Positions 24,799-55,684 of a DNA stretch of 64,000 nt are shown piece after piece (the stretch's first letter is position 1; each line of letters opens with the position of its first letter). A program made the translations under genes and the position numbers. The DNA comes from Egicoccus halophilus (GTDB taxonomy: Bacteria; Actinomycetota; Nitriliruptoria; Nitriliruptorales; Nitriliruptoraceae), in assembly GCF_004300825.1 (NCBI RefSeq), contig NZ_CP036250.1, forward strand, positions 2,108,001 to 2,172,000, given 5' to 3'. Under the pieces are notes generated by a model. The model was not told the DNA's origin. It worked only from the letters and a program-made list of their open reading frames with translations, and did not search any database.

Positions 24799-24804
24799 TA
24801 GGCT
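24799..24804 (+). promoter_or_regulatory. candidate -10 element of the GH9 gene
   Basis: TAGGCT ends 1 nt before the 24-bp palindrome, so a repressor bound there would cover the transcription start. Confidence 0.35.
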
Positions 24805-24805
24805 C

Positions 24806-24829
24806 CGGCGTGGGAGCGCTCCCACGCCG
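24806..24829. promoter_or_regulatory. CebR-like operator palindrome
   Basis: A perfect 24-bp palindrome whose core, TGGGAGCGCTCCCA (24811-24824), is identical to the consensus operator of CebR, the LacI-family cellobiose/cellotriose-responsive repressor of Streptomyces. Flanking CGGCG/CGCCG extends the symmetry. It lies 115 nt upstream of the GH9 gene and beside a -10-like element, so cello-oligosaccharide-controlled repression is likely. No cebR gene is in the window. Confidence 0.8.
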
Positions 24830-24943
24830 GTCGATCTGGTCGCTTGCCGCGATGCGCCACGCATCGTGCTCGACCGCATCGAAGGCCGGGAGCCGAGGCG
24901 GACGAGACGGCCGGGGATCCGGCCGGCAGGGAGGGCGACGCAC

Positions 24944-27900
24944 ATGGCGTGGACACGGACGCGATCGGGGCCGATCGCGGCACTGGTGGCACTGCTCGGG
25001 CTGCTGGCGACGACACTGGTGGCGGTGCCCGACGCCGCGGCCCAGGAGACACCGACCAACCTGGTGCCCAACGGCGACTTCGCCGAGGGCACGGCGAACT
25101 GGTGGGGACTCGACGACGCCGCCTTCGCCGACGGCGAGGCGTGCTTCACCGCGCCGCGCGGGGACATCGGCAACTGGGCGACCAACGAGCTCACCCCGGG
25201 ACAGAGCTACGAGTTCGCCTTCACGGCGCGCGTGACCGAGGAGACCCGCGAGCTCGCCGCACGGGTGCAGCCCGACGGGGCGCAGGCACCGGACCACGAC
25301 GTCTCCGAGACCGTGACCCTGACCGACGAGGCGAACCGCTTCTCCTGGCGCTTCACGGCCGGTCCCTACAGCGGCGACGTCGGTACGGCCAGCAACCGCG
25401 TCATCTTCGACACCTCGGGCCCGGCGGGCACGGTGTGCCTCTCTCAGGTCGAACTGCGGCCGATCAGCGAGCTGCTGAGCAACCCCACCTTCGACGGGCA
25501 GGACCCGTGGTGGACCAGCGACGGGGTCGCGCTCGCCGACGACGGCACCGGACGGTTGTGCCGCACCGTCCCGGCCGGCGGCGAGGCCTGGGACGTGCTG
25601 CTCGGTCAGGGTGGGGTGGAACTCGAGGAGGGCCGCACCTACACGGTCTCGGTCGCGGCCTCGGCCTCGCCGCAGTCCACGGCACGGGTCGTGATCCCGA
25701 TGCCGGGACGGGACTGGCCGCCGTTGTACGTCGCCGATCTGACCCTGCGTCCTGACGGGCAGGCCTTCACCGCCTCGTTCGAGGCGGAGGCCGACGCGTC
25801 GACCCAGTTCCAGTTCGAGCTCGGGGGCAACCCGGAGCCGTTCGAGCTCTGCCTGACGCTGGCCTCGCTGACGACCGGAGGCGACGTGGCCGGGTACGAG
25901 CCGGACACCGGCCCGCGCGTGCGGGTCAACCAGGTCGGCTACCTCCCGCACGGGCCCAAGCGCGCCACGCTGGTGACCGACGCCGACAGCCCGTTGGCCT
26001 GGCAGCTGCAGGACGCCGACGGGACCATGGTGGCGACCGGTCGCTCCGAGCCGCGCGGGTTCGACCCCTCGGCCGGGCTGAGCGTGCACCACCTCGACTT
26101 CTCCGCCTTCACCGGCAGTGGCCGGGACTTCACCCTGGTCGCCGACGACGACACGAGCTACCCGTTCGACATCTCGGCCGAGCTCTACGCCGACCTGCGT
26201 CGCGACGCGCTGGGCATCTACTACACCCAGCGGTCCGGCTTCGAGATCGTCCCCGTCGAGGTCGACGGGGAGCTGCGCAAGACCGAGTACGTCCGCCCGG
26301 CCGGGCACGTGAGCGAGTTCGGCGGCGACGACGTCAACCAGGGTGACTTCGGTCTGCCGTGCCTGCCCAACGAACGGTTCCAGGCCGCGGGTGGGACCCA
26401 GTACGGCGGCTTCGACCACTACGGCCGCGAGGGCTGGCACTGCCCGCAGGGCTACACCGTCGACGCGCACGGCGGCTGGTACGACGCCGGTGACCACGGC
26501 AAGTACGTGGTCAACTCCGGCATGACCGTCTACCAGCTGCTGTCCACCTACGAGCGCAACCAGTTGGCGCGGGTCGCCGACCGCGGGGCACTCGGCGACG
26601 CGACGCTGGTCATCCCCGAGCGCGGCAACGGGGTGCCCGACGTGCTCGACGAGGTGCGTTGGAACCTCGACTGGATGCTGCGCATGCAGGTCCCGGCCGG
26701 CACGTCGATGGCGATCGAGGGCGAGGAGTTCGACGCGGGCGGCCTCGTGCACCACAAGCTGCACGACATCGCCTGGACGGGACTGAACACCCTGCCGCAC
26801 GAGGACCCGATGCCCCGCTTCGTGCACCGGCCCTCGACGGCGGCGACGCTCAACCTCGCCGCCGCGGCGGCGCACGGTGCCCGTGTCTGGGCGGACGTCG
26901 ACCCGGCCTACGCCGACGAGCTGCTCGCCGCGGCCCGCCGGGCATGGGCCGCGGCCAACGCCCATCCCGACATCCTGGCGCCCAACACCAACGACCTCGA
27001 CCCGGCGCCGGGCGGCGGGCCGTACGACGACGACGAGCTCGGTGACGAGTTCTACTGGGCGGCCGCCCAGCTGTACCTCACGACCGGTGAGGCCGGATTC
27101 GCCCAGGCCGTGACCAGCTCGCCCTACCACGTCGGCGGGGAGCGGGGAGACCTGTGGTCGCCCACCGGCTTCGACTGGGGCGCGACCGCGGCCGCCGGCC
27201 GGCTGGACCTGGCGACGGTGCCGAACGGCCTGGAGGACCGGGCGGCCGTGATCGCGTCGGTGCGCGAGGGGGCGGACCGCTACCTCGCCACCCAGCGTGC
27301 CGAGCCGTTCGGGCACCCCTACGGGCCGCAGCGCTACGACTGGGGCTCGACGCACCAAGTGGTCAACAACGCGGTGGTCATCGCCACCGCCTACGACCTC
27401 ACCGGTGAGCGGCGCTACCTCGAGGGCGCGGTCGAGGCCGCGGACTACGTGCTCGGCCGCAACGCCCTGAACAACTCCTACGTCAAGGGGTACGGCTCGC
27501 ACTACTCGCAGCGGATGCACAGCCGCTGGTACGCGTCCGCCGACCGGTTGCCGCCGTTCCCCGACGGCAAGCTCGCCGGCGGTCCCAACAGTGGCATCCA
27601 GGACCCGGTGGCGCAGGCCAACCTGCAGGGTTGTGCCCCGCAGGCCTGCTACATCGATCACGTCGACTCGTGGTCGACCAACGAGACCACGATCAACTGG
27701 AACGCCGCCCTGTCGTGGTTCGCGTCCTGGCTCGACGACATGGGTGACGGTCGTCCCGACCACCCGGGTCTGCCGCCGGGTGTCGAGCCGCCGCTGGCCG
27801 AGCAGTACGAGCCGTGGTCACGCGGGGTCGAACGGGTCTGCGACGGCACGGCGACCCTGCCGTTCACCGACGTCGGCGCGTCCGTCCACGCCGAGCTGAT

Positions 27901-28435
27901 CGCCTGCCTGGCCGACCTCGGGCTCACCGAGGGCGTCGGTGACGGCCGGTACGGCCCGGCCGGCATGGTGTCGCGCGGCCAGCTGGCGACCTTCCTCGAC
28001 CGGATGCTGCGACACGCCGGGGCGCCGCTGCCCGACGCGCCGCGGGCGTTCCCCGACACGGCCGGCAACGTGCACGCCGGGGCGATCGACCGGCTCGCGG
28101 CCGCGGGCATCGTGCAGGGCATCCGTGGCGGCACCTACGCGCCGCGGGCGGCGGTCACCCGCGCCCAGGCGGCCACGATGGTGGTCAACACGCTCGACCT
28201 GCTCGACGACGGCGAGCACAACCGTTCGCTGGCGCTGGGGGAGGACCTGCACGCCTTCGCGGACGTGACCGAGGCCACCCACCACCGCGCCGCGATCGAG
28301 GTGCTCGCCTGGCACGGCGTGGTGCAGGGCTTCCGCGACGGCTCGTACGGGCCCGGTCGCTCCCTGCGCCGGGACCAGATGGCCGCGCTGCTGCTGCGGT
28401 CGTTGGACCTGGCGACGGAGTCGGACGAGGACTGA
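24944..28435 (+). CDS. secreted GH9 cellulase-like glycoside hydrolase with SLH anchor
   Basis: 1163 residues. ATG at 24944 follows GGGAGGG and begins a signal peptide (cleavage near residue 34, after AAA). Two CBM4/9-like modules (~38-170, ~180-315) precede a CelD-type Ig-like domain (~323-410, VRVNQVGYLP). The GH9 catalytic domain (~412-945) has aspartates D514 and D517 in DAGDH and acid E914 in NETTINWNAAL. Three S-layer homology repeats (~972-1026, ~1033-1085, ~1102-1155) end the protein and would tether it to cell-wall polymer. The family cleaves beta-1,4-glucans; cellulose or mixed-linkage glucan is likely. Confidence 0.93.
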   Translation: MAWTRTRSGPIAALVALLGLLATTLVAVPDAAAQETPTNLVPNGDFAEGTANWWGLDDAAFADGEACFTAPRGDIGNWATNELTPGQSYEFAFTARVTEETRELAARVQPDGAQAPDHDVSETVTLTDEANRFSWRFTAGPYSGDVGTASNRVIFDTSGPAGTVCLSQVELRPISELLSNPTFDGQDPWWTSDGVALADDGTGRLCRTVPAGGEAWDVLLGQGGVELEEGRTYTVSVAASASPQSTARVVIPMPGRDWPPLYVADLTLRPDGQAFTASFEAEADASTQFQFELGGNPEPFELCLTLASLTTGGDVAGYEPDTGPRVRVNQVGYLPHGPKRATLVTDADSPLAWQLQDADGTMVATGRSEPRGFDPSAGLSVHHLDFSAFTGSGRDFTLVADDDTSYPFDISAELYADLRRDALGIYYTQRSGFEIVPVEVDGELRKTEYVRPAGHVSEFGGDDVNQGDFGLPCLPNERFQAAGGTQYGGFDHYGREGWHCPQGYTVDAHGGWYDAGDHGKYVVNSGMTVYQLLSTYERNQLARVADRGALGDATLVIPERGNGVPDVLDEVRWNLDWMLRMQVPAGTSMAIEGEEFDAGGLVHHKLHDIAWTGLNTLPHEDPMPRFVHRPSTAATLNLAAAAAHGARVWADVDPAYADELLAAARRAWAAANAHPDILAPNTNDLDPAPGGGPYDDDELGDEFYWAAAQLYLTTGEAGFAQAVTSSPYHVGGERGDLWSPTGFDWGATAAAGRLDLATVPNGLEDRAAVIASVREGADRYLATQRAEPFGHPYGPQRYDWGSTHQVVNNAVVIATAYDLTGERRYLEGAVEAADYVLGRNALNNSYVKGYGSHYSQRMHSRWYASADRLPPFPDGKLAGGPNSGIQDPVAQANLQGCAPQACYIDHVDSWSTNETTINWNAALSWFASWLDDMGDGRPDHPGLPPGVEPPLAEQYEPWSRGVERVCDGTATLPFTDVGASVHAELIACLADLGLTEGVGDGRYGPAGMVSRGQLATFLDRMLRHAGAPLPDAPRAFPDTAGNVHAGAIDRLAAAGIVQGIRGGTYAPRAAVTRAQAATMVVNTLDLLDDGEHNRSLALGEDLHAFADVTEATHHRAAIEVLAWHGVVQGFRDGSYGPGRSLRRDQMAALLLRSLDLATESDED

Positions 28436-28500: not shown

Positions 28501-28842
28501 TCAGCCGAGCTCGTCGTGCCCGTCGTGCCCGGCAGCCGGTAGCCCCTTGGTCCGGGTCGGCCGGGAGAACCACACCTCGGGTTCCCTGGCGAGCAGGCCG
28601 TCGAGCCGGGACCCGAAGCGGGCGGCGGCCTCGGTCGCGCCGTGGACGTCGAGGGCGTCGTCGTCGGCGTACAGCTCGTACATCACCACCGCGTCGGGTT
28701 CGTCGCGGTCCCGGTGGGCGGCGTAGACCAGCGTGCCGGCCTCCTGCTCGGCCGCGTCCGACATCTCGTCGACGGCGGCCGCGAGTTCGTCGCCGGACCC
28801 GGGGTGGGCGGTGAAGCGGGCGTGGACGGCCAGCGGTGGCAT
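28501..28842 (-). CDS. antibiotic biosynthesis monooxygenase (ABM) domain protein
   Basis: 113 residues. The fold pattern of an ABM ferredoxin-like domain is visible: an initial strand LAVHARFTAHPG, the helix DELAAAVDEMSDAA, the pair GTLVYAAHRDRDEPDAVVMYELYADDDALDVH and a terminal strand. Homologues include quinol monooxygenases, but many have no known substrate. ATG at 28842 follows GAGGAGC. It lies downstream of a small gene on the same strand. The C-terminal tail (GHDGHDELG) looks disordered. Confidence 0.85.
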   Translation of the reverse strand: MPPLAVHARFTAHPGSGDELAAAVDEMSDAAEQEAGTLVYAAHRDRDEPDAVVMYELYADDDALDVHGATEAAARFGSRLDGLLAREPEVWFSRPTRTKGLPAAGHDGHDELG

Positions 28843-28905
28843 GCGTGCTCCTCGAAGTTCGACGCCGGCCGCGGGTGCGACCGGCGTCCGTCGGGTGATC
28901 CGATG

Positions 28906-29190
28906 TCAGTCGCGGGAGACCAGCTTGAAGAACGTGCTCGTCTCGCCGTCGGCCTTCTGCTCCTGGTAGAGGAAGGCCAGCTTCTCGGCCTCGAACTTGT
29001 CGAACCACACGTCCCAGTCGACGTGCTCGAGTTCCGATTCGTCGGCGCCGTGTCCCTGCACGTCGAGCGTGAGCACGCCCGGGCCGCCGTCGGCCTCCTC
29101 GGTGCCCCGCGGGGTCGCCGGGACCGCGTCGCGGGCCTCGGCCCAGGAGCGGATCTCGTCGTGGTCGGTGGTGGTCGTGCTCTCGCTCAT
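28906..29190 (-). CDS. small acidic conserved protein
   Basis: 94 residues, very acidic, with the pattern DHDEIRSWAEAR near the start, GVLTLDVQG in the middle and WDVWFDKFEAEKLAFLYQE near the end. Similar small proteins occur in many bacteria and are sometimes labelled 1,4-alpha-glucan branching enzyme, although they are far too short for that activity and no catalytic motif is present. ATG at 29190 follows GAGGAGGCC, which overlaps the end of the GT2 gene 12 nt upstream, so the two are probably one transcript. Function unknown. Confidence 0.75.
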   Translation of the reverse strand: MSESTTTTDHDEIRSWAEARDAVPATPRGTEEADGGPGVLTLDVQGHGADESELEHVDWDVWFDKFEAEKLAFLYQEQKADGETSTFFKLVSRD

Positions 29191-29202
29191 CGCTCGGCCT
29201 CC

Positions 29203-30096
29203 TCAGGGCGTCGAGGAGGATCGTTCCGCCCGCGCCACGCGTCGGAGGTCGGCTTCCACGTCCGGGAGGACGGGGCTGCGCTCGCCCAGGACCCGTGGCA
29301 GGTCCCGGACGGCCTCCACCACGCCGGCGCGGGCGGCGGGGTCACGCGCCGCGTGCACCAGGGTCTCGCCGGTGACACGCAGGGCCGATCCCGCCGGACG
29401 GCGCAGCCAGGCGGTCCACAACCGGTTGCGGGTCGTGCGTCGGCGGCGGCCCGGCCGCTCGCCGGTGGCGTCGGGCGCGTGGCGGGCACGTACGCCGGCG
29501 ACGTGGACACTTCGCCAGCCGGCGCTGCGCAGGTCGAGGGCCAGCAGCTCCTCCTCGCCACCGATGTGCATCCGTTCGGCGAACCCGCCGACGGCGAGGA
29601 ACGCCTCGCGCCGCACGACCGCGCCGCAGGCGACGAAGCCGAGGACCTCGGGTCCGGGCAGGTCCGTGCGGACGAGCGGGCTCGCCGCCAGCAGCGCGTT
29701 GGTCGGGTCCTCGCGTCCGCCGTCGACCCCGACGTCGATCGCGGCGGCGAGCAGACCGACGTTCGGATGGGCGTCCAGGACGTCGGCGGCCCGGCGCAGG
29801 GCACCCGGCTCCCACCACGAGTCGTCGTCCGCGAAGGCGACGTAGGGCGCGTCGACGGCCGCGACCCCGAGGTTGCGGGCGGCACTGCCGAGGTTGCGGG
29901 GAGCGCGTACGAGGCGGACCTGCGGGAAGTGGCGCGCGACCTGTTGGGCGGTCGCGTCGGGGGAGGCGTCGTCGACCACCACGACCTCGGGCCGCTCCGG
30001 CAGGGCGAGCAGGCGGGGCAGGGTGGCGAGCACCCCGGCGCAGCGGTCGAAGGTCGTCATCACGACGGCGATGCGCCGGTCGGCCGGGTCGGGCAC
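29203..30096 (-). CDS. family 2 glycosyltransferase
   Basis: 297 residues with a GT-A fold. The nucleotide-sugar site is seen as VVVVDDASPD and the metal-binding motif as FADDDSWWEPG, followed by ERMHIGGEEELLALDL. GTG at 30096 follows CGGAG with 8-nt spacing; the upstream open frame is antisense to the carbamoyltransferase gene. It is divergently transcribed from the heptose/carbamoyl cluster across a 216-nt gap and probably serves the same glycan. No membrane helices are visible. Confidence 0.88.
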   Translation of the reverse strand: MPDPADRRIAVVMTTFDRCAGVLATLPRLLALPERPEVVVVDDASPDATAQQVARHFPQVRLVRAPRNLGSAARNLGVAAVDAPYVAFADDDSWWEPGALRRAADVLDAHPNVGLLAAAIDVGVDGGREDPTNALLAASPLVRTDLPGPEVLGFVACGAVVRREAFLAVGGFAERMHIGGEEELLALDLRSAGWRSVHVAGVRARHAPDATGERPGRRRRTTRNRLWTAWLRRPAGSALRVTGETLVHAARDPAARAGVVEAVRDLPRVLGERSPVLPDVEADLRRVARAERSSSTP

Positions 30097-30140
30097 GCGA
30101 ACGTCTCCGGGAGGGGGGTCGGACTCTGAGGATTCGAGCG

Positions 30141-40553: not shown

Positions 40554-40572
40554 CGGCCGGCGACCGTCAGCG
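40548..40572. terminator. hairpin spanning the stop codons of the convergent GT9 and GH3 genes
   Basis: CGCTGACGG (40548-40556) pairs with 40564-40572 over a 7-nt loop. Each arm contains one of the two stop codons, so the short 13-nt gap is used as a two-way terminator. Confidence 0.55.
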
Positions 40573-42909
40573 TCGCCGCCGGGAAGGCTGCAGGTCGAGC
40601 ACCCGCAGGACCCGGTCGAGGGCAGCCAGTGACGGGCGTCCCTGCCCGAACAGCACCAGCGAGCGCAGCGGCGACTCGCGCAGGATCGTCGCGAACATGC
40701 GGCGGGTCGCCGCGTCGGGTTCGTGCAGCGATCCGAGCATCGCCCGGCTCGCCGCCCGCGCCAGCAGCGGCTGCACCGCACGCCCGAGCGGCGTCGCCGC
40801 GAGGTCGTCGAGCGTCGAGTTGCGGTGCAGCGGGAGCACCGGGTCCGCATCGGGGACCTCCCGCCCGAACATGGCCGCGAACGTCGCCTCGTCGGCGAGC
40901 GGCTCGGGCCGGTGTGGCGAGGCCGGCACCTCGGACTCGCCGTCGACCTCGATGCGCACCCGCTCGCGCACGTCCACCGACGAGGCGGCGACCCGCACCT
41001 CGAACGTGCCGGCCGCGACCAGCCAGTCCCGGCGCTCGACGTCCCAGTGCGCGAAGGCGCGCGGGCCGAGGTCGACGTGCACCCGCTCGGCCTCCCCGGG
41101 CGCCAGGTGGACCTTGGCGAAGCCGCGCAGCTCCTGGGCCGGGCGGTGCACCGTCGCGTCGACGTCGGCGACGTAGACCTGCACGGCCTCGCTGCCGGCA
41201 CGCTCGCCGGTGTTGGTCACGGTCACCGACACGGTGAAGCGCTGGCCGGCGCCGTTCACCTCGACCTCGGACCACGCGAAGGTGGTGTAGGAGCCGCCGT
41301 GGCCGAAGGGGAAGCGGGCCGGCACCGCGAACGTGTCGTGGAACCGGTACCCCACGTGCAGGCCCTCCAGGTAGCGGACCTGACGCGGCTCCCCGGGGAA
41401 CGCGGCGGAGGCCGGCAGGTCCTCGGCCGCCACGGGGAAGCTCTCGGCCAGTCGCCCGCCGGGTTCGGCGTGGCCGAGCAGCACGTCGACGATCGCGCTG
41501 CCGCCGGCCTGTCCGGCCAGGTAACCCTCCACCAGTGCTGCGGGCCGGTCGGCCCACGGCAGTTCGACCGGCGCGCCGTTGGCGAGGACGACCACGGTCC
41601 GGGGGTTGACCGCCACGACGGCCTCGACCAGACGGGTGTGCCCGTCGGGCAGCCGCAGGTGGTCGCGGTCGAAGCCCTCCGACTCGTAGGCGCCGGGGAG
41701 CCCGGCGAACACCACGGCCACGTCCGCGTCGCGGGCGGCCGCAACGGCGGCCTCGACCAGCGTGTCGGTGGTCGAACCGTCCAGCGCGTAGCCGGGGGCG
41801 AACGCGACGCGGGTGTCGTCGCCGAGTCGGTCGCGGAAGGCGTCGAGTGCCGTGTCGAGCCGGGTGGGCGTGACCTGGGAGCTGCCCGCCCCCTGGTAGC
41901 GGGGTCGCGTCGCGAAGCCGCCGATCACGGCCAGGCGGCCCGGGGACGCCAGCGGCAGGATCCCGTCGTTGGTCAACAGCACCGTGCCGGCCGCGGCGGC
42001 GCGGCCGGCCAGGACGTGATGGGCCTCGGCGTCGTCGGCGCCCGCGAGCCCGTCGGCCACGGCCGACTCGGCCCGCTCGGCCAAGCGCGCGAGCCGTGCC
42101 ACGCTGCGCTCCACCGCGGCGGCGTCGAGCTTCCCGCGCTCGACCGCGGCGACCACCTCGCGGTCGAACGCCTTGCCACTGGTGGGCATCTCGAGGTCGA
42201 GCCCGGCGGCGACCGCGGCGGCCCGGTCGTTGACGGCACCCCAGTCGCTCATCACGACCCCGTCGAAGCCCCACTCGTCGCGCAGGACGTCGGTCAACAG
42301 CCAGCGGTGGTCCGAGCAGTAGGTGCCGCCGACCCGGTTGTAGGCGCACATCACCGTCCACGGTGCCGACTCGCGCACGGCGATCTCGAACCCGGTCAGG
42401 TACAGCTCGCGCAGCGTGCGGTCGTCGACGAGCACGTCGACGACCATGCGTCCGGCCTCCTGGTTGTTGACGGCGAAGTGCTTGAGACAGCCTCCGACCC
42501 CCTGGGACTGCAGCCCGCGCACCATCGCGGCCGCCATCCGGCCCGACAGCAGCGGATCCTCCGAGAAGTACTCGAAGTTGCGTCCGCCGGCCGGGTGCCG
42601 CTTGAGGTTGAGCCCCGGTCCGAGCAGCACGTCGACGTCGCGGGCGCGCGACTCACGACCGAGCGCGGCGCCCACCTGCTCGATCAGGTCGAGGTCCCAG
42701 CTGGCCGCCAACGACGACGCGGTCGGGAAGCAGGTGGCCGGCAGGGCGCTACCGATCCCGAGCTGGTCGGCGTCGGGCCGGCGGACCCCGTGCGGGCCGT
42801 CGGCCACCACGACCGGTCGGTGCCCCTCGACGGCCTCGGTGCTCCAGTTGTCGCGGCCGGAGAGGAGCCGGACCTGCGTGGCCAGGTCCTCGGACGTGGG
42901 GGAGGTCAT
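40567..42909 (-). CDS. glycoside hydrolase family 3 beta-glucosidase-like protein
   Basis: 780 residues. The N-terminal TIM-barrel-like domain carries the nucleophile D222 in VVMSDWGAV and substrate residues in GLNLKRHPAGGRNFEYFSEDP. A second alpha/beta domain and a C-terminal fibronectin-like domain (near residue 640 on) complete the long GH3 form. There is no signal peptide, so it is probably cytoplasmic and acts on imported oligosaccharides such as cellobiose. ATG at 42909 overlaps the upstream oxidoreductase stop. No CebR-like box lies upstream of this pair. Confidence 0.93.
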   Translation of the reverse strand: MTSPTSEDLATQVRLLSGRDNWSTEAVEGHRPVVVADGPHGVRRPDADQLGIGSALPATCFPTASSLAASWDLDLIEQVGAALGRESRARDVDVLLGPGLNLKRHPAGGRNFEYFSEDPLLSGRMAAAMVRGLQSQGVGGCLKHFAVNNQEAGRMVVDVLVDDRTLRELYLTGFEIAVRESAPWTVMCAYNRVGGTYCSDHRWLLTDVLRDEWGFDGVVMSDWGAVNDRAAAVAAGLDLEMPTSGKAFDREVVAAVERGKLDAAAVERSVARLARLAERAESAVADGLAGADDAEAHHVLAGRAAAAGTVLLTNDGILPLASPGRLAVIGGFATRPRYQGAGSSQVTPTRLDTALDAFRDRLGDDTRVAFAPGYALDGSTTDTLVEAAVAAARDADVAVVFAGLPGAYESEGFDRDHLRLPDGHTRLVEAVVAVNPRTVVVLANGAPVELPWADRPAALVEGYLAGQAGGSAIVDVLLGHAEPGGRLAESFPVAAEDLPASAAFPGEPRQVRYLEGLHVGYRFHDTFAVPARFPFGHGGSYTTFAWSEVEVNGAGQRFTVSVTVTNTGERAGSEAVQVYVADVDATVHRPAQELRGFAKVHLAPGEAERVHVDLGPRAFAHWDVERRDWLVAAGTFEVRVAASSVDVRERVRIEVDGESEVPASPHRPEPLADEATFAAMFGREVPDADPVLPLHRNSTLDDLAATPLGRAVQPLLARAASRAMLGSLHEPDAATRRMFATILRESPLRSLVLFGQGRPSLAALDRVLRVLDLQPSRRRR

Positions 42910-44315
42910 CGTCGGCCTTCCGTTCGATGCTGTTCGAGGAGGCGCAACCACACCTCCGAGATGGACGGGAACGGCGGCACCGCATGCTCCAGGCGCGACA
43001 GCGGCACCTCGCCGACGATCGCGACCGTGGCGGCGTGCAGCAACTCGCCCGCACCGGGGCCGACGAAGGTGGCACCCACCACGACGTCCCTCCCGGTGTC
43101 GATCACCAGGTGGGCGAGCCCGCGCAGGCCCTGACCGAGCAGGGACGCGGCGGCGACGCTGTCGAGACCGACCTGCCGTTCGACGACGTCGAGCCCGGCC
43201 TCGCGGGCCTGCCGTGAGGTCAGCCCGACGGAGGCGACCTGCGGGTCGGTGAAGACCACCCGGGTGAGCGCCCGCCGGTCGGCCCACGGCGGGTCCACCT
43301 CGAGGTCGGCGAGCGCGTCGCCCACCAGGCGGGCCTGGTACTTGCCGTGGTGGGTCAGCAGCGCCCGACCGTTGGCGTCGCCGACGACGAAGAGCCAGGC
43401 GTGTCCGGGCACGCGCAGGTGGTCGTCGACCGCGACGACGCCCCGGGGGCCCGGCTCGACGCCGACGGTGTCGAGGCCGAGGTCGTCACTGGGGACGCGA
43501 CGACCGACGGCGACGAGCAGTTCGTCGGCGACGAGCGTGCGATCGTCGGCGAGTCGGAGCTCGACCGGGGCGTCGTCGCTCGCGCGCTGCACCTCGACGG
43601 CCTCCGCGCCGAGCTCGACGCGGATCCCGTCCACGCGCAGGGCGTCACCGAGCAGTTCGCCGGCGGCCGGTTCCTCGGTGGACAGCAGTCGCGGTCCGCG
43701 CTCGACCAGCGTGACCTCCTCGGACCCGAGCCGCCGCCAGGCCTGTGCCAGCTCCACCCCCACGGCGCCACCGCCGAGGACCAGCAACCGGCGGGGGACC
43801 GCGGACGCCTCGGTGGCGGCACGGTTGTCCCATACCCGGGTCCGATCGAGACCTTCGATCGGCGGAGCGGCACTGCGGGTGCCGACGGCGACGACGACCC
43901 CCCGGCGTGCGGTCAGGTGACGGGTCGTGTCGTCCGCGGTGGTGACCTCGACCGTCCGGGGGCCGGCCAGACGCGCCTGTCCCCGGACCAGCGTGATGTC
44001 GGCCTCCCGGAGCCACGACACCTGCCCCTGGTCGTCGAACCCGGACGCGGCACGGTCGCGGGCCCGGAGCGCGGCCTCGGCGTCGATGCTCCCGGTCACC
44101 GCGGTCGCGGCACCCGGGACGGCGCGCGCGGCCGCCAGCACCTCCCCGGGACGCAGCAGCGCCTTGGACGGCATGCACGCCCAGTAGCTGCACTCCCCGC
44201 CGACGAGCTCCCGTTCGACGACCACCACCGACAACCCGTGTCGGCGCGCACGGTCGGCCACGTTCTCGCCGGCGGGGCCGGCGCCGATCACCACGACGTC
44301 GTACTCGTCGACCAT
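42906..44315 (-). CDS. FAD-dependent pyridine nucleotide-disulfide oxidoreductase
   Basis: 469 residues. The FAD-binding VVIGAGPAGENVA is followed by the redox-active pair C42-x4-C47 in GGECSYWACMPSK. The NAD(P) site is VLGGGAVGVELAQAW, and a C-terminal dimerisation domain ends in a histidine-bearing HAVPPFPSISE. It belongs with mercuric reductase- and dihydrolipoamide dehydrogenase-like enzymes of unknown substrate. ATG at 44315 follows GGGAG; a GTG at 44336 is less likely. It is coupled to GH3 by an ATGA overlap, an odd partnership. Confidence 0.9.
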   Translation of the reverse strand: MVDEYDVVVIGAGPAGENVADRARRHGLSVVVVERELVGGECSYWACMPSKALLRPGEVLAAARAVPGAATAVTGSIDAEAALRARDRAASGFDDQGQVSWLREADITLVRGQARLAGPRTVEVTTADDTTRHLTARRGVVVAVGTRSAAPPIEGLDRTRVWDNRAATEASAVPRRLLVLGGGAVGVELAQAWRRLGSEEVTLVERGPRLLSTEEPAAGELLGDALRVDGIRVELGAEAVEVQRASDDAPVELRLADDRTLVADELLVAVGRRVPSDDLGLDTVGVEPGPRGVVAVDDHLRVPGHAWLFVVGDANGRALLTHHGKYQARLVGDALADLEVDPPWADRRALTRVVFTDPQVASVGLTSRQAREAGLDVVERQVGLDSVAAASLLGQGLRGLAHLVIDTGRDVVVGATFVGPGAGELLHAATVAIVGEVPLSRLEHAVPPFPSISEVWLRLLEQHRTEGRR

Positions 44316-54598: not shown

Positions 54599-55684
54599 AT
54601 GCGCGTCGTCGTCCTGGGTGCCACCGGCAACGTGGGGACCAGCGTGGTCCGTGCGCTGGCCCGTGACGACGCCGTCACGCAGATCGTCGGTGTGGCCCGC
54701 CACGTACCGCGCCAGAGCATGGACCCCAAGCTCGTCTGGGAGTCGGGGGACGTCGAGGACGTCGACGGCCTGCGACGCGTGGTGCGCGGGGCGGATGCGG
54801 TGGTGCACCTCGTGTGGTTGATCCAGCCCAGCCGCGACCTGTCGCGACTCTGGCGGGTGAACGCCGAGGGCAGTGCGAACGTGCTGGCCGCCGTCGAGGC
54901 CGAGGACGTGCCCGTGCTCGTCTACGCCTCGTCGGTCGGGGCCTACTCGCCCGGTCCGGCGGACGGGCGCGCCGTCGACGAGTCCTGGCCCACCCACGGC
55001 ATCCCCACCTCGCCCTACTCGCGTGAGAAGGCCTACGTCGAGCGACTGCTCGACGCGGCCGAGGCCCGGGAGCCGTCCCGTCGGATCGTGCGCCTGCGAC
55101 CGGCGCTGCTGTTCAAGGCCGAGGCGGCGTCGCGGTTGCGCCGACTGTTCCTCGGCTCGTTGTTCCCCAACGCCCTGGCGCGTCCCGGGGCGGTGCCCGT
55201 CCTGCCCAACGTGCCGGGGCTGCAGTTCCAGGCCCTGCACACCGGTGACGTCGCCGACGCGTTCCACGCCGGTGTCGTCCGCGACGTGCGCGGGGCCTTC
55301 AACCTGGCCGCCGACCCGGTGCTCGGCCTCGAGGAGATCGCCGACCTGCTCGGGGCGCGCACCGTCGACGTCCCGGTGCGGCTGGCCCGCACCGCGGTGC
55401 GGGCCACGTGGGCGGCCCGGCTCCACCCGGTCGACGTCGGCTGGTTCGACCTGGCGTTGCGGACACCGCTGCTGGACGCGGGTCGGGCGCGCCGTGAACT
55501 CGGCTGGGCCCCGCGGATCTCGGCGACCGAGGCCCTGCTGGAGATCCTCGGAGGTGTGCGCCGGGGGACCGGTGGCGCGACACCGGCACTGCAGCCCGAC
55601 ACCTGGTCCGCCCGCCCGGCGGAGTTGGCGACCGCGCAGGGCGCCCGGGAGATCGACCCGCCCACCGACACGCCGACCGGCTGA
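54599..55684 (+). CDS. NAD-dependent epimerase/dehydratase family protein
   Basis: 361 residues, extended SDR. The N-terminal GATGNVGTSVVRAL binds NAD(P), and the YSREK catalytic motif follows the serine pair in VYASSVGAYSPG. The C-terminal region (FQALHTGDVADAFHAGVV) is typical of sugar-nucleotide-epimerase-like proteins, though the substrate is unknown. ATG at 54599 follows GGGAG. The last ~45 residues are proline/threonine-rich and probably disordered. It lies just upstream of the Mrp operon with a 9-nt gap. Confidence 0.9.
   Translation: MRVVVLGATGNVGTSVVRALARDDAVTQIVGVARHVPRQSMDPKLVWESGDVEDVDGLRRVVRGADAVVHLVWLIQPSRDLSRLWRVNAEGSANVLAAVEAEDVPVLVYASSVGAYSPGPADGRAVDESWPTHGIPTSPYSREKAYVERLLDAAEAREPSRRIVRLRPALLFKAEAASRLRRLFLGSLFPNALARPGAVPVLPNVPGLQFQALHTGDVADAFHAGVVRDVRGAFNLAADPVLGLEEIADLLGARTVDVPVRLARTAVRATWAARLHPVDVGWFDLALRTPLLDAGRARRELGWAPRISATEALLEILGGVRRGTGGATPALQPDTWSARPAELATAQGAREIDPPTDTPTG

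Follow-up and report, generated by a model that had tools for sequence, protein, structure and literature searches.

A probable CebR-type operator before a GH9 cellulase gene and at the cebR locus of Egicoccus halophilus

The 64,000-nucleotide stretch of Egicoccus halophilus DNA analyzed here, referred to below as the window, carries a GH9 cellulase gene on the + strand at 24944..28435. Its inferred start codon, the ATG at 24944, follows a likely ribosome-binding site (GGAGGG, 24930..24935, + strand), and the encoded product of 1163 amino acids begins with a signal-like N-terminus. Pfam matches place two CBM4_9 modules, a CelD_N domain (PF02927, 9.4e-25), the GH9 catalytic domain (PF00759, 1.8e-90), and SLH repeats in the remainder of the protein. 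Judged by these features the product is a secreted cellulase, and its SLH repeats indicate that it is probably bound to the cell envelope or surface. A search with its own catalytic part as query identified it as the only GH9 protein in the genome, and the composition of the gene is ordinary for that genome. We found no match in a GH6 search of the genome, a search that does find GH6 in other actinobacteria, or in a GH48 search of the genome, which was run without a positive control. Directly 5′ of the GH9 gene, the segment 17799-24685 comprises a gene for a large hybrid histidine kinase, rich in HAMP repeats, and then cheR, cheB, and a response-regulator gene. On the 3′ side, a 495-residue frame at 28642-30129 has no Pfam match.

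The sequence CGGCGTGGGAGCGCTCCCACGCCG at 24806..24829, in front of the GH9 gene, is a perfect 24-bp palindrome, assigned to neither strand. An earlier note made from the letters of this DNA had described it as a 24-bp palindrome with a CebR-type core, and both the sequence and a palindrome scan bear this out. The 14-bp core, TGGGAGCGCTCCCA, occupies 24811..24824 (likewise without strand). The −10-like element that the note had placed beside the palindrome is also there, as the hexamer TAGGCT at 24799..24804 (+ strand, picked by eye), 6 bp 5′ of the core; a sigma-70 scan found neither a full promoter nor a −35 element upstream of the GH9 gene. GH9 relatives in two other genomes of the class (G047 and G038) have TAGGGT and TACGGT 11 bp before their respective boxes. 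Since the core begins 6 bp after the hexamer, a dimer bound to it would cover the transcription start. Elsewhere in the window there is a single further perfect 24-bp palindrome, TGGCCCGCACCGCGGTGCGGGCCA at 55383-55406, which is unrelated to the CebR box.

Within the window, the core is the sole match at two or fewer mismatches. Shuffled windows average 0.75 such matches, so near-matches alone carry no weight. The GH3 gene that the note had described as lacking the box (ORF at 40567..43287, − strand, with the true start inside the ORF) does lack it and thus falls outside the regulon. Its start shares 4 bp with the end of an oxidoreductase gene located upstream, a coupling that probably leaves the GH3 gene without a separate promoter. 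When we scanned the whole genome (3,980,161 bases in one contig) for the 14-mer, a check proposed in the note, we found two exact copies, both before cellulose or cellobiose genes, and no copy with one mismatch. A first-order Markov model predicts 0.04 exact copies per genome and gives a probability of about 8e-4 for two or more, a value computed before counting the placement of both copies at such genes. Sites with two or three mismatches number 295 per strand in the genome, fewer than the 504 for a reversed control pattern; as they are no commoner than the control, we claim only the two perfect sites and no weaker regulon members. These counts also bear on whether the palindrome could be a chance match or an RNA hairpin without a regulatory role, for example a terminator of the upstream chemotaxis genes. 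The window is 73% G+C and contains a second palindrome of the same length, and the upstream response-regulator gene ends about 125 bp before the palindrome, but the palindrome has no T run and drew no terminator call, the chance expectation is far below the two copies found, and the box is kept before GH9 genes across the phylum although its flanks differ. We consider this explanation extremely unlikely.

The second exact copy of the core is at G000:C1:1331470-1331483. A GH1 beta-glucosidase gene follows 141 bp further on (L003:10126-11508; the product scores above the TIGR03356 cut-off), and its end is overlapped by 4 bp by a LacI-family gene (L003:11505-12560). The LacI-family protein matches PF00356, PF13377, and PF00532 over cut-off, that is, a LacI helix-turn-helix and a periplasmic-binding-protein-like sensor. 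Its best match among PDB structures is 5ysz (E 1.8e-96), which we take to be the LacI-family regulator CelR of Thermobifida fusca; the next-best structure scores 5.8e-43. In our tree the protein groups with actinobacterial CebR, apart from the LacI paralogues of the class, with a support of 99. By sequence, the gene is a clear CebR/CelR relative. The note had assigned the operator to CebR and made that reading hinge on an orthologue in the genome; the orthologue is present, and the box at its locus is identical to that before the GH9 gene, so that TGGGAGCGCTCCCA stands both at the repressor locus and at the cellulase gene. In this genome and four relatives the cebR-locus box lies directly behind a promoter made up of TTGACA, a 17-bp spacer, and a hexamer, a geometry that would suit a repressor blocking the transcription start. 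The palindrome is very probably an operator at which the CebR/CelR-type LacI repressor from this bglC-cebR locus shuts off the GH9 gene.

Divergent from the GH1/LacI-family pair are the genes of a sugar ABC transporter, one for a solute-binding protein and two for permeases. Unlike at the Streptomyces-type ceb locus, we found no orthologous CebEFG transporter here. The transporter belongs to another sugar ABC family; a counterpart in Herbidospora and Nonomuraea shares 34-48% identity with it. Compared with the transporters at most other cebR loci, its permeases show about 24-33% identity and its binding protein has no detectable similarity. This unusual cebR-linked transporter (L003:6153-9744) occurs in the genus and in the genomes G046 and G003, and Herbidospora and Nonomuraea dietziae have a relative of it at their own cebR loci. 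The comparison suggests that transporters were exchanged around a repressor/beta-glucosidase core that stayed conserved. The solute-binding-protein gene is preceded, at a distance of about 100 bp, by an inverted repeat, CCTACGGTGGC-NNN-CGTAGG (L003:9842-9861; G000:C1:1331341-1331360). Exact copies of it occur at the cebR locus of this genome, three relatives in the genus, and G046, and a search of 66 class genomes revealed no other exact copy. The repeat may hold a −10 element (TACGGT) or may itself be a second operator. Close to the ceb locus, at L003:40-3275, there are frames that by eye resemble flagellar flhB and flhA.

The genome encodes three further LacI-family proteins, and one of these could in principle read the box in response to a different sugar, in which case the palindrome would be merely CebR-like. 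One of the three (G000:C1:1154399) does begin its recognition helix with SRS, as CebR does, but continues with AVSF rather than TVSR; the corresponding stretches of the three are SVATVSR, SQATVSR, and SRSAVSF, and SRSTVSR is found only in CebR. Elsewhere in the class, LacI paralogues sit amid the same 14-mer. They form a second LacI group, which has a helix Ser and shares 40-44% identity with CebR; its genes (L110, L111, L112, and L113, from G063, G050, G058, and G047, respectively) lie amid several exact or one-mismatch TGGGAGCGCTCCCA boxes. The 14-mer is therefore not diagnostic of CebR alone. We found no member of this group in the present genome, however, and here the identical box stands at the cebR locus itself; moreover, in four genomes of the class the GH9 box equals the cebR box letter for letter. 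Control by another LacI protein is very unlikely on this evidence, and we conclude that the palindrome before the surface cellulase gene is almost certainly a site for the organism's own cellobiose-sensing repressor.

The distant actinobacterial lineage perceived in the note is the class Nitriliruptoria, from which we sampled 66 genomes. Eleven of them, G000 included, encode a CebR protein with at least about 50% identity, and the pattern TGRGAGCGCTCYCA has 23 sites in the 66 genomes, all but one of which adjoin a CebR-like, sugar-binding-protein, or GH9 gene. In G019 an exact box coincides in part with the end of a glycosyltransferase gene; this one was set aside as a chance occurrence. Four genomes (G000, G047, G038, and G025) contain near-complete GH9 homologs, G038 with an additional GH9 fragment at a contig end; in all four near-complete genes a box precedes the first aligned residue by 52-154 bp. 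Within each genome, the letters of this box are those of the box at the repressor locus: TGGGAGCGCTCCCA (G/C) in G000, TGAGAGCGCTCCCA (A/C) in G038, and TGAGAGCGCTCTCA (A/T) in G047 and G025, where the repressor of G025 is a more distant LacI protein of about 40% identity. Beyond the class, an exact box lies upstream of each of seven GH9 homologs from other actinobacteria (47-53% identity), and more distant GH9 genes, including one of 45% identity, lack it. Within the genus, the bglC-cebR locus and its box are present in four of four members, one box having one changed base. The GH9 gene was not found in the three other members, one of which is a 77% complete genome. This distribution implies either that the repressor arm is older in the genus or that GH9 has been lost elsewhere.

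The letters of the box follow the repressor. In the CebR family, the half-site toggles between TGGGAGC and TGAGAGC, with G or A as the third base, in step with a single recognition-helix residue. This residue, residue 26 of CebR, is the second of the recognition helix and corresponds to AA-16 in the numbering of a LacI-family study that paired AA-15 and AA-16 with operator positions 5 and 4 (PMC2978694). We compared residue and letter at 102 loci and obtained a box at 62. Where residue 26 is Ala, the box has the A form at 33 loci, the G form at two, and a mixed form at four, and a further 31 Ala26 loci have no box in the stretch searched. Where it is Ser or Gly, 22 boxes have the G form, one is mixed, and none has the A form. 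The named loci were fetched in part with a peptide pattern that already allowed Ala or Ser at residue 26, and the Fisher value for residue against letter (p 8e-14) ignores relatedness, so we set it aside; on supported branches there are three tree-independent residue/letter pairs, none of them opposed, a number too small for significance. From sequence comparison, the link is a specific case of the known LacI-family rule. A broader reading would be that Ala versus Ser/Gly sets A-T versus G-C in each half-site, that the residue has switched several times, and that dispersed targets such as GH9 were re-lettered along with the local repressor, in which case distant actinobacteria could have arrived at identical boxes independently; we give this reading an even chance. 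The variant TGAGAGCGCTCTCA had previously been described in Catenulispora and Thermobispora (PMC3377646), and what is added here is its connection to residue 26 within the CebR family.

This connection matters for the history of the circuit. The note had taken the identical box to suggest that the circuit is old or moved together with cellulose use, a proposition that is not established, given that the letters toggle with residue 26, the transporter differs, and the tree permits both histories. The operator letters change along with residue 26, so the circuit cannot be dated by its perfect agreement with Streptomyces, and exact identity with the Streptomyces box is weak evidence of age. A single transfer from a Streptomyces-like donor might have carried repressor, operator, and cellulase together, a history that would be compatible with the CebR switch proposed here. 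It would fit with the presence of GH9 in one of four genus members, with a box exactly of the Streptomyces type, and with a union of this CebR clade and the Streptomyces/Thermobifida clade, which is not rejected (p-AU 0.46). Conversely, the class CebR proteins may form a single clade (p-AU 0.53), the repressor locus is found throughout the genus, and the closest GH9 to this one comes from a relative within the class (71% over the catalytic region versus at most 64% elsewhere). The gene's ordinary composition, the different transporter family, and the helix Ser in place of Gly also speak against such a transfer, which we regard as unlikely.

In the switch that we propose, the CebR/CelR-type repressor, encoded 0.8 Mb away, would bind the palindrome and keep the GH9 gene off, its dimer seated on the transcription start. 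Cellobiose or another cello-oligosaccharide would bind the repressor and cause it to leave the DNA, and its release would turn on the surface cellulase and the uptake/beta-glucosidase locus together. Repressor binding and the start site are inferred, as is the inducer, by analogy with T. fusca CelR and Streptomyces cebR. The findings would bring a distant actinobacterial class into the range of the cellobiose-repressor circuit, here in a minimal, two-operator version, and would link the circuit to a cellulase whose SLH repeats probably anchor it to the cell surface. The letter-by-letter match of repressor and operator across relatives also offers a natural series for the joint change of a regulator and its scattered sites.

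The closest known counterparts are the CebR regulon of Streptomyces and the CelR regulon of T. fusca. The Streptomyces regulon is built on the 14-bp box TGGGAGCGCTCCCA (PMC4898821; for S. scabies, PMC4890002), and deletion of cebR in Streptomyces renders cellulases constitutive (PMC4898821). The system described here has in common with it an identical box, placed before cellulase genes in both, and a LacI-family repressor whose gene neighbors those of a GH1 beta-glucosidase and a sugar ABC transporter. It differs in the family of the transporter, in the SLH repeats of the cellulase, in a recognition-helix Ser where the Streptomyces/Thermobifida clade has Gly, and in having just two boxes, compared with up to 30 predicted targets in Streptomyces. 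With T. fusca CelR (taken as 5ysz), the repressor shares relatedness over its full length (E 1.8e-96) and the same palindrome, although the helix reads GRGT in CelR and SRST here. T. fusca CelR regulates cellulases and a putative cellobiose transporter and is released by cellobiose in vitro (PMC3377646), whereas here a single cellulase gene lies under the box. The TGAGAGCGCTCTCA variant of Catenulispora and Thermobispora also occurs in class relatives, and this genus has the G form. Overall, the comparison well supports the view that this is a known kind of switch in a new example with a two-site regulon.
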